Shown here piece after piece: positions 42,796 through 45,309 of a stretch of DNA of 64,000 nt. Where the stretch lies: the NCBI RefSeq assembly GCF_025446935.1, contig NZ_JAOEGN010000002.1, forward strand, positions 62,001 through 126,000. Direction: 5' to 3'. The number at the start of each line of letters is the position of its first letter. The stretch's first letter is position 1. Position numbers and translations under genes: made by a program. Origin of the DNA: Paracholeplasma vituli. GTDB taxonomy: Bacteria > Bacillota_I > Bacilli_A > Acholeplasmatales > UBA5453. The notes under the pieces were generated by a model that did not search any database, was not told where the DNA came from, and saw only the letters and a program-made list of their open reading frames with translations.

Positions 42796-42823
42796 AAAGA
42801 CTTTGATCACAAAGTCTTTTTTT
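42796..42823 (+). terminator. Terminator after rpsR
   Basis: Perfect 10-bp stem AAAGACTTTG/CAAAGTCTTT with a 4-nt loop, then a T-run. Confidence 0.93.
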
Positions 42824-42824
42824 A

Positions 42825-42853
42825 TTGATAAAATTGCGATTTTTCGATATAAT
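42825..42853 (+). promoter_or_regulatory. Promoter of gdpP-rplI-dnaB
   Basis: -35 TTGATA at 42825-42830, 17-bp spacer, -10 TATAAT at 42848-42853. Confidence 0.75.
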
Positions 42854-42873: not shown

Positions 42874-45309
42874 ATGAGAAGGATTATTGCACTGCTATTA
42901 TCCATCATCGGATTGATTGTTGCAGGCATCATTGCTTATCAACACGGCGCATTCAATGATATGGACTTTGTCATATATTATGCCATTATAATGGCTTTTT
43001 TTGGCGCTATCGTAGTATCGATTGAGTTCATATTGAATCACAACCGTAAACAAAAAATCAAATCACTTAATGCCAGATTGACTGCGTGGTCCAGTTTGTC
43101 ATACCACGTCAAGCAAATAGGGGATGAAGCGTTTAACGAATTACCCATAGGAATTTTTCTATATGATTTGGATAATCTCAATGTAAAATGGAGTAACCCA
43201 TTTGCAAACAAGGTCTTTGGATTTGATATTGAAAATGCTTTAGTCGGTCAACTCCACGAAAGCCTTGAGCAGCTGATTACCAAACAAGGGTCAGTGACTA
43301 CATTCGCGATTGGTGACAAACGCTATGACGCGATAAGTAGCAAGAATAACCAAGCAGTTTACTTGTTTGATGTGACCTCTCGTGAGGAAATTAAAGACAA
43401 GTATCTTAAACGATCCACAGCGTTTGGGGTAATTTATCTTGATAACGTCGAAGAAGCGTTATCTGGCTTCGATATTTATGAACGTTCGAACATTCGTGGT
43501 GAATATTTAGGGATCATTACAGACTGGATTCAAGAGCACCATGGTTATATCAAACTCTATACAGAAGACCGTATGACCATTGCGATGCATTATGAAGAAC
43601 TCCAAAAAGTGATGGCGAACAAATTCGAAATCTTAAACCGTATTCGTGAAGTTTCAGCCAAACACAGGATCCGTATTTCAGCATCCATCGGGATTGCTTG
43701 TTGGGAAGTATCTTTTGATGAACTTGGTACACTTGCACAAAACGCCATTGAACTTGCTGAAAAACGCGGTGGTGACCAAGCGGTTGTCAATATTCAAAAC
43801 GAGAAGATTGCATACTTTGGTGGTAAATCGAATGCCTCTGAAAAGAGTTCAAGAGTCCATGTACGGATTCAGTCTCAAAATTTCCGCGAATTGATTGAAG
43901 CTGCCTCCAATATTGTCATCATGGGCCACAAGTTTGCTGACATAGATGCTTTAGGTGCGATGATCGGGGTTTACCGTATGGCAACTGCATCTAAAAAGGA
44001 TGTTAAGATAGTTTTCGATATTCCGGAAGTTGATAATACCGTTAAGAAGATTGTACCGTTCTTAAAAGAAGAATCGCCACATTTATACGCTCAACTAGAT
44101 GAATCTAAAAACATCTTAAAATTCATGAACAATGATACGTTACTGGTCATCGTGGATACCCAATCACCAAATATTGTTGCGAATCAAGATGTCTATAAAC
44201 AAGCTAAGAAAATTGCCTGTATCGACCACCACAGACATGGTGAAAATACATTTGAAGCCATTTTTATGTATGTTGAACCGTATGCATCATCATCCGTAGA
44301 ATTGGTTGCGGAAATGATGGAGTTTTATCAAAAAGATATTGACTTATCTCCAATCGAAGCCACTGTAATGTATGGTGGCATCATTGTCGATACCAACGAG
44401 TTTTCATATCGTACAGGAACCCGTACTTTCGGAGCGGCGGCTTATCTAAAAGAACATGAAGCGTCCTCTGTTAGGGTAAAAGAATGGTTACGTTTAGACT
44501 TAGATAGAACCTTAGCAATCAATGAGCTATTAAATAATGTCCAAATGGTAACACCTGGATTTGCTGTTGTAATCGATGAGTCAGGGATTGTACGAGACCG
44601 CGTCCTTTTAGCACAAACCTCACAAAAAATTCTTGAAATTGAAGGGGTCAAAGCAGGTTTTACACTTGCTAAAGTAGATGATTCATCTATTGGAATATCC
44701 GCCCGTAGTTACGATGAAATCAACGTCCAAATTATCATGGAAGAATTGGGCGGAGGCGGTCACTTAAATAGTGCTGCCACACAAATTAAAGATCAGTCGA
44801 TTCAAGAGGTATTTGAATCGCTTAAGACGCTCTTACTTAGAGAACATGACGAAGGAGACGAAAGAATGAAAGTCATATTAACTGAAGATGTCAAAGGTAG
44901 AGGTAAAAAGGATGATGTTATCGAAGTAGCCAATGGTTACGGAACATTCCTATTATCTTCTAACAAAGCCATCGTTGCTTCCGATGAAAACATCAAGGCC
45001 ATTGAGAAAGAAAAACAATTACTCAAAGAACGCGAAGCTGAACACCTAGCGTTAATGAACAAACTTAAACAAGAAATTGAATCCAAATCGGTGAATATCT
45101 TCATCAATATTGGTAATGATGGAAAGTTGTTTGGAAGTGTCACAACCAAACAAATCGTCGAATCCTTTGAAGAACAAACCGGTATTCGTTTAGACAAAAA
45201 GAAAGTCGAATTGACTTCTGAAATTAACTCAGTCGGTATCTATACCGCAACCGTGTCATTGCACAAGGATGTCAAAGCCCAATTTGAAATTAATGTCTTA
45301 GAGAAATAA
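42874..45309 (+). CDS. gdpP: GdpP cyclic-di-AMP phosphodiesterase fused in frame to ribosomal protein bL9
   Basis: 811 residues. Residues 1-664 are GdpP: two N-terminal membrane helices, a PAS-like segment, a degenerate GGDEF domain (KHRIRISASIGIACWEVS), then DHH/DHHA1 with His352, Asp356, Asp358, the DHH triplet at 451-453 and GGGGH at 626-630. GdpP degrades c-di-AMP in the cytoplasm. The frame continues without a stop into a complete bL9 (665-811). In Bacillus gdpP and rplI are adjacent but separate. Whether the full-length fusion is made, or only GdpP-L9 plus free L9, is open. Confidence 0.9.
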   Translation: MRRIIALLLSIIGLIVAGIIAYQHGAFNDMDFVIYYAIIMAFFGAIVVSIEFILNHNRKQKIKSLNARLTAWSSLSYHVKQIGDEAFNELPIGIFLYDLDNLNVKWSNPFANKVFGFDIENALVGQLHESLEQLITKQGSVTTFAIGDKRYDAISSKNNQAVYLFDVTSREEIKDKYLKRSTAFGVIYLDNVEEALSGFDIYERSNIRGEYLGIITDWIQEHHGYIKLYTEDRMTIAMHYEELQKVMANKFEILNRIREVSAKHRIRISASIGIACWEVSFDELGTLAQNAIELAEKRGGDQAVVNIQNEKIAYFGGKSNASEKSSRVHVRIQSQNFRELIEAASNIVIMGHKFADIDALGAMIGVYRMATASKKDVKIVFDIPEVDNTVKKIVPFLKEESPHLYAQLDESKNILKFMNNDTLLVIVDTQSPNIVANQDVYKQAKKIACIDHHRHGENTFEAIFMYVEPYASSSVELVAEMMEFYQKDIDLSPIEATVMYGGIIVDTNEFSYRTGTRTFGAAAYLKEHEASSVRVKEWLRLDLDRTLAINELLNNVQMVTPGFAVVIDESGIVRDRVLLAQTSQKILEIEGVKAGFTLAKVDDSSIGISARSYDEINVQIIMEELGGGGHLNSAATQIKDQSIQEVFESLKTLLLREHDEGDERMKVILTEDVKGRGKKDDVIEVANGYGTFLLSSNKAIVASDENIKAIEKEKQLLKEREAEHLALMNKLKQEIESKSVNIFINIGNDGKLFGSVTTKQIVESFEEQTGIRLDKKKVELTSEINSVGIYTATVSLHKDVKAQFEINVLEK
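44866..45309 (+). CDS. rplI: Ribosomal protein bL9, likely also started internally
   Basis: 147 residues from the internal ATG 44866: MKVILTEDVKGRGKKDDVIEVANGYGTFLL, then the long central helix and the C-terminal RNA-binding domain. Full family length (about 148). A good SD, GAAGGAGA at 44851-44858, lies eight bases before the ATG, inside the gdpP coding frame, so free L9 is probably translated from here as well as in the fusion. Confidence 0.85.
   Translation: MKVILTEDVKGRGKKDDVIEVANGYGTFLLSSNKAIVASDENIKAIEKEKQLLKEREAEHLALMNKLKQEIESKSVNIFINIGNDGKLFGSVTTKQIVESFEEQTGIRLDKKKVELTSEINSVGIYTATVSLHKDVKAQFEINVLEK

Follow-up and report, generated by a model that had tools for sequence, protein, structure and literature searches.

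The window analysed here, 64,000 nucleotides of the genome of Paracholeplasma vituli, which like its relatives is a wall-less bacterium, contains a gene in which GdpP and the ribosomal protein bL9 share one reading frame. The features of the locus, in positions of the window, are as follows.

42796 to 42819, forward strand: intrinsic-terminator-like hairpin (found by pattern scan; a stem of 10 pairs, then a T run) closing the upstream rpsF-ssb-rpsR unit
42825 to 42853, forward strand: promoter-like site for gdpP-rplI(-dnaB), TTGATA-17-TATAAT, with 11/12 matches, 20 bases 5' of the GdpP ATG
42874 to 45309, forward strand: fused GdpP-bL9 open reading frame, 811 amino acids, a single frame without a stop
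42874 to 44865, forward strand: GdpP part, with two membrane helices, PAS, degenerate GGDEF, DHH and DHHA1 (Pfam and structure model)
44847 to 44865, forward strand: linker codons, joining L9 to the last helix of DHHA1 (in the model, helix 643-658 and L9 strand 664-669)
44852 to 44858, forward strand: internal Shine-Dalgarno (SD) sequence AAGGAGA, whose duplex energy of -9.3 kcal/mol equals that of the GdpP start itself
44866 to 44868, forward strand: internal bL9 start codon, an in-frame ATG (codon 665), a conserved start site in homologues
44866 to 45309, forward strand: complete bL9, 147 amino acids, the only L9 of the genome (TIGR00158, PF01281)

A preliminary description of this DNA had proposed that no stop codon separates the DHHA1 domain from bL9, and we could confirm the 811-codon frame with Pfam domains on both sides of the joint. 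Their order is PAS_GdpP, GGDEF_GdpP, DHH, DHHA1 (residues 579-652), Ribosomal_L9_N (PF01281, 665-709) and L9_C (PF03948, 729-809). The L9 part matched TIGR00158 with 115.6 bits (cut-off 58.6), and its PF01281 match was the single one in the 1.86-Mb genome. The whole frame matched the NCBIfam model NF011110 (PRK14538, putative bifunctional signaling protein/50S ribosomal protein L9) with 875.6 bits against a curated cut-off of 707, in the same domain order and over nearly the full model (positions 53-835 of 838). The fusion is therefore already catalogued, and is general rather than peculiar to P. vituli. The model describes one bifunctional protein, and an internal start and a free L9 are absent from its description. 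A literature search found no paper naming NF011110 or PRK14538, and another on the expression of a GdpP-L9 fusion found nothing.

In a structure model of the fused protein (mean pLDDT 82.8, pTM 0.40), L9 adopts its normal fold, with a short linker leading to it from DHHA1, and two helices are found at the N-terminus; at this pTM the placement of the domains relative to each other is undefined. Wherever a fused sequence extends over them, the eight active-site residues of DHH are intact, and the P. vituli genome carries a diadenylate cyclase gene, which argues that the enzyme half is probably active as a c-di-AMP phosphodiesterase. Phytoplasma GdpP, too, has kept its DHH residues despite genome reduction, in every sequence covering them.

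The hairpin and the near-consensus promoter adjoin (42796-42853), and gdpP-rplI(-dnaB) seems to be a transcription unit of its own, with a very short leader. In a pattern scan, promoter-like sites near the L9 start were no more frequent than expected by chance, and an internal promoter ahead of L9 was rejected for this reason. With a near-consensus promoter before gdpP and none above chance before L9, free L9 would need the gdpP mRNA.

The L9 start ATG at 44866 is preceded by GAAGGAGACGAAAGA; GAAGGAGA occupies 44851-44858. The spacing of eight bases given in the preliminary description holds when counted from AAGGAG, but it is seven from GAAGGAGA. Among internal in-frame ATGs of long open reading frames sampled from about 0.4 Mb of the P. 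vituli genome, just 8 of 2022 had an equally strong SD.

Distribution and origin of the fused gene

Fused GdpP-L9 genes were found in about 250 genomes belonging to three Mollicutes-related orders, phytoplasmas included, and in none of these genomes was a stop found in the short linker between GdpP and L9. The frame is thus conserved among relatives. In Acholeplasmatales, 131 of 134 genomes had an L9 match, always in a frame of about 760-870 codons except for three shorter frames, which are sited on contig ends or small contigs. Since all L9-bearing Acholeplasmatales genomes checked, single-contig ones included, carry the same fused frame, an assembly error is excluded. The other two orders with the fusion comprise families f8, f15 and f25, and families f20 and f21, respectively. 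The fused L9 is usually the only L9 of its genome. In the remaining families of the class and in other Bacillota, the genes are separate or L9 has no adjacent GdpP.

Two genomes stood apart. G245 (genus g105), which is 97% complete, had no detectable L9 and no GdpP-L9 frame, just stand-alone DHH proteins; a joint loss of GdpP and L9 may explain this. The phytoplasma genome G423 (locus L127) had two fused GdpP-L9 matches with identical scores, at C1:328029 and C1:454421; the second may be a true duplication or an assembly artefact.

In a tree of GdpP plus L9, every fused gene fell on one side of a single branch, with modest support (74/56) and with 76% of bootstrap trees for a single origin. 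Read from the sequences, the fusion probably had one origin (bootstrap 74); the tree neither needs nor excludes independent fusions in the three orders. For order f24 we also considered that a fused gene had split again, but the four junctions there differ and the order looks ancestrally separate.

The surroundings of the fused gene recall the gdpP-rplI-dnaC/dnaB operon of Bacillota, where the gene order is the same and the rplI ribosome-binding site lies within the 3' end of gdpP (PMC6398277, PMC5575661). A gdpP deletion in S. gallolyticus, for instance, retained 69 bp of the gdpP end, preserving the rplI ribosome-binding site (PMC6398277). In that operon the gdpP stop is at or near the rplI start, whereas in P. 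vituli the stop is gone and one frame is shared. Among the separate-gene relatives, the distance from the rplI start to the gdpP stop is mostly between -29 and +15 bases, and the rplI SD usually lies within the last codons of gdpP, so the internal SD of the fusion is an inherited one. In Compostibacillus (L038) the gdpP stop directly abuts the rplI ATG, in frame, so that a single stop loss would produce a fusion. The fusion would then have arisen from an overlapping or abutting gdpP-rplI pair, by removal of the stop with the start kept.

Conservation of the inner start and its loss after duplication

We compared the L9 start site in 143 distinct fused genes. The start codon is ATG in 128, GTG in 12 and TTG in 1, and the two remaining genes, from phytoplasmas, carry their ATG one or two codons further 5'. 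Where Val is encoded at this position, the codon is always GTG (12 of 12, in four genera, which are not independent events), a minority Val codon in those genes. By comparison, at three conserved-Met columns within GdpP, GTG or TTG made up just 2 of 41 replacement codons.

SD pairing at the L9 start averaged -8.85 kcal/mol, versus -1.11 kcal/mol at 2230 other in-frame ATGs. It outranked every other internal SD in 119 of 134 genes, as it did in most genomes of 42 out of 44 genera, and the sequence pointed out in P. vituli is therefore conserved in relatives. Its letters fall in either of two codon phases (GGA-type, 108 genes; GAG-type, 24 genes), and the amino acids encoded by the region vary (QEEK, KEET, EGDE, GGGE). 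Predicted structure around the L9 start is weak (-4.4 vs -8.5 kcal/mol), weaker than background in 134 of the 143 genes. Speaking against a working inner start, four phytoplasma genes keep the L9 ATG with the SD nearly absent, although phytoplasma SDs, weak at L9, are even weaker at the starts of GdpP and of the downstream gene that were checked; at loci L120-L145, predicted pairing is weak at all three.

Three further lines of analysis gave nothing in favour of the inner start, and the first two count against it. Under a synonymous-codon null the L9 SD reaches significance in just 8% of individual genes; the sequence of the linker peptide already dictates the SD, and the test is weak evidence for this reason. 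Codon adaptation was negative: the L9 half scored -0.07 (GdpP half, -0.12) versus +0.07 for highly expressed genes, so that ribosomal-protein-like codon usage is absent. Finally, the lack of an acidic residue at position 23 of NTL9, which we take to be the partner of the free N-terminus, had looked fusion-linked, but the separate-gene families f12, f22 and f24 also lack it, and it therefore counts as no evidence.

In two lineages from different orders, the fused gene is followed directly by a free L9 that has an SD to itself. In G072 and G454 (genus g8, family f3) the free copy lies 67-70 bases after the fused frame, and the fused copy has no SD ahead of its L9. In G571, G570 and G572 (genus g105, family f20; loci L280, L281 and L282, respectively) it lies 15-17 bases downstream, and the fused copies have lost the SD and have AAG (G570), AAG (G571) and ACT (G572) in place of the start codon. 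In the L9 tree each free copy falls with the lineage it comes from, indicating two independent duplications. The inner start was lost in 2 of 2 duplicate genera versus 0 of 43 others (Fisher p = 0.001, with genera that are not fully independent). G24 and Y25 of the fused L9 disappeared in parallel from both lineages, and of 28 conserved residues the fused duplicates keep 17-19, the free copies 23-25 and single-copy fusions at least 22. The long frame is still open in both. Its L9 domain is under purifying selection in the f3 duplicates (dN/dS 0.115) and evolves fast in those of f20 (dN/dS 0.32, from a close pair), so that the fused form may matter less in f20. Both lineages present the pattern that would be expected of a single gene doing two jobs, which were parted after duplication.

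Two putative products of one gene

The suggestion that both a GdpP-L9 fusion and free L9 are made has gained strong support from the restriction on the start codon, the conservation of the SD and the loss of the inner start in both duplicate lineages. We consider it very probable, from sequence comparison, that one gene yields the two proteins, following the loss of a stop from a gdpP-rplI pair. Translation from 42874 would give a membrane-anchored c-di-AMP phosphodiesterase with a C-terminal L9 domain, and a second, SD-driven initiation at the ATG at 44866 of the same mRNA would give free bL9 for the ribosome. Loss of the gdpP stop would have merged the frames of an overlapping or abutting pair with the rplI SD within gdpP, and the rplI ribosome-binding site would then have been retained by selection, as the sole source of free L9. 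The frame, its distribution, the SD, the conserved start codon and the decay after duplication are observations; we infer actual initiation at the inner start from them, and whatever is said of the relative amounts of the two products, or of the function of the fused form, is conditional in the same way.

If instead the fusion were the sole product, ribosomes would carry a membrane-tethered GdpP-L9, or a protease would free the L9, and the SD and ATG would be relics. In favour of this are the open frame of about 250 genomes and the completeness of the fused L9, and release by proteolysis is compatible with the sequence. But a relic would not retain a start codon and an SD in 42 of 44 genera while the amino acids change and the SD occupies two phases, nor would it vanish in precisely those two lineages where a free L9 was gained; we find this explanation quite improbable. 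It is harder to set aside the converse, that free L9 is the only product of importance and the fused form a tolerated by-product of losing an inert stop codon. The gdpP stop wanders around the rplI start in separate-gene relatives, so its exact place seems unimportant, and the fused L9 has relaxed after duplication in f20. However, a stop never returned to the short linker in any of the fused genomes, and the frame and the L9 domain persist without the inner start in both duplicate lineages, under constraint in one of them. We regard this explanation as doubtful, if a serious one.

Intragenic SD-like sequences have been proposed to slow ribosomes, and the internal SD, sited just after the DHHA1 domain, could serve as a pause aiding the folding or insertion of that domain rather than initiation. 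Such a pause leaves unexplained both the restriction to ATG, GTG or TTG seven to eight bases downstream and the loss of the start upon L9 duplication, and we hold it to be highly improbable.

Under the two-product interpretation, the fused form has also been retained and therefore probably serves some purpose by itself. It might be a working L9-tailed phosphodiesterase, in which L9 docks GdpP on membrane ribosomes or senses free 23S rRNA or the state of the ribosome, so that c-di-AMP breakdown would follow translation, while the inner start supplies ordinary L9. We think this specific proposal unlikely, and the tie between c-di-AMP, ribosome and membrane raised in the preliminary description is speculative. 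A review describes bL9 as coordinating neighbouring ribosomes in Mycoplasma pneumoniae polysomes (PMC10931766); against this background, a membrane-tethered L9 would be an interesting, if conjectural, possibility.

In the literature that we searched, neither the dual coding at this locus nor its origin in an overlapping pair nor the two compensating duplications seem to have been described. The genes for IF2 (infB), ClpB and CheA have in-frame internal starts that give long and short isoforms. The fused gene resembles them in having one mRNA frame, two SD-driven starts, read here from the sequence, and products that share a C-terminus. Unlike in those cases, the short product would be a complete ribosomal protein, unrelated to the upstream enzyme and usually encoded in a sole copy. 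Automatic annotation gives one bifunctional protein and so misses the free L9. A long-lived fusion across three orders, phytoplasmas included, conceals a ribosomal protein gene within the gene of a signalling enzyme; the two duplications put dual coding to a natural test and prompt one to ask why the fused form persists.
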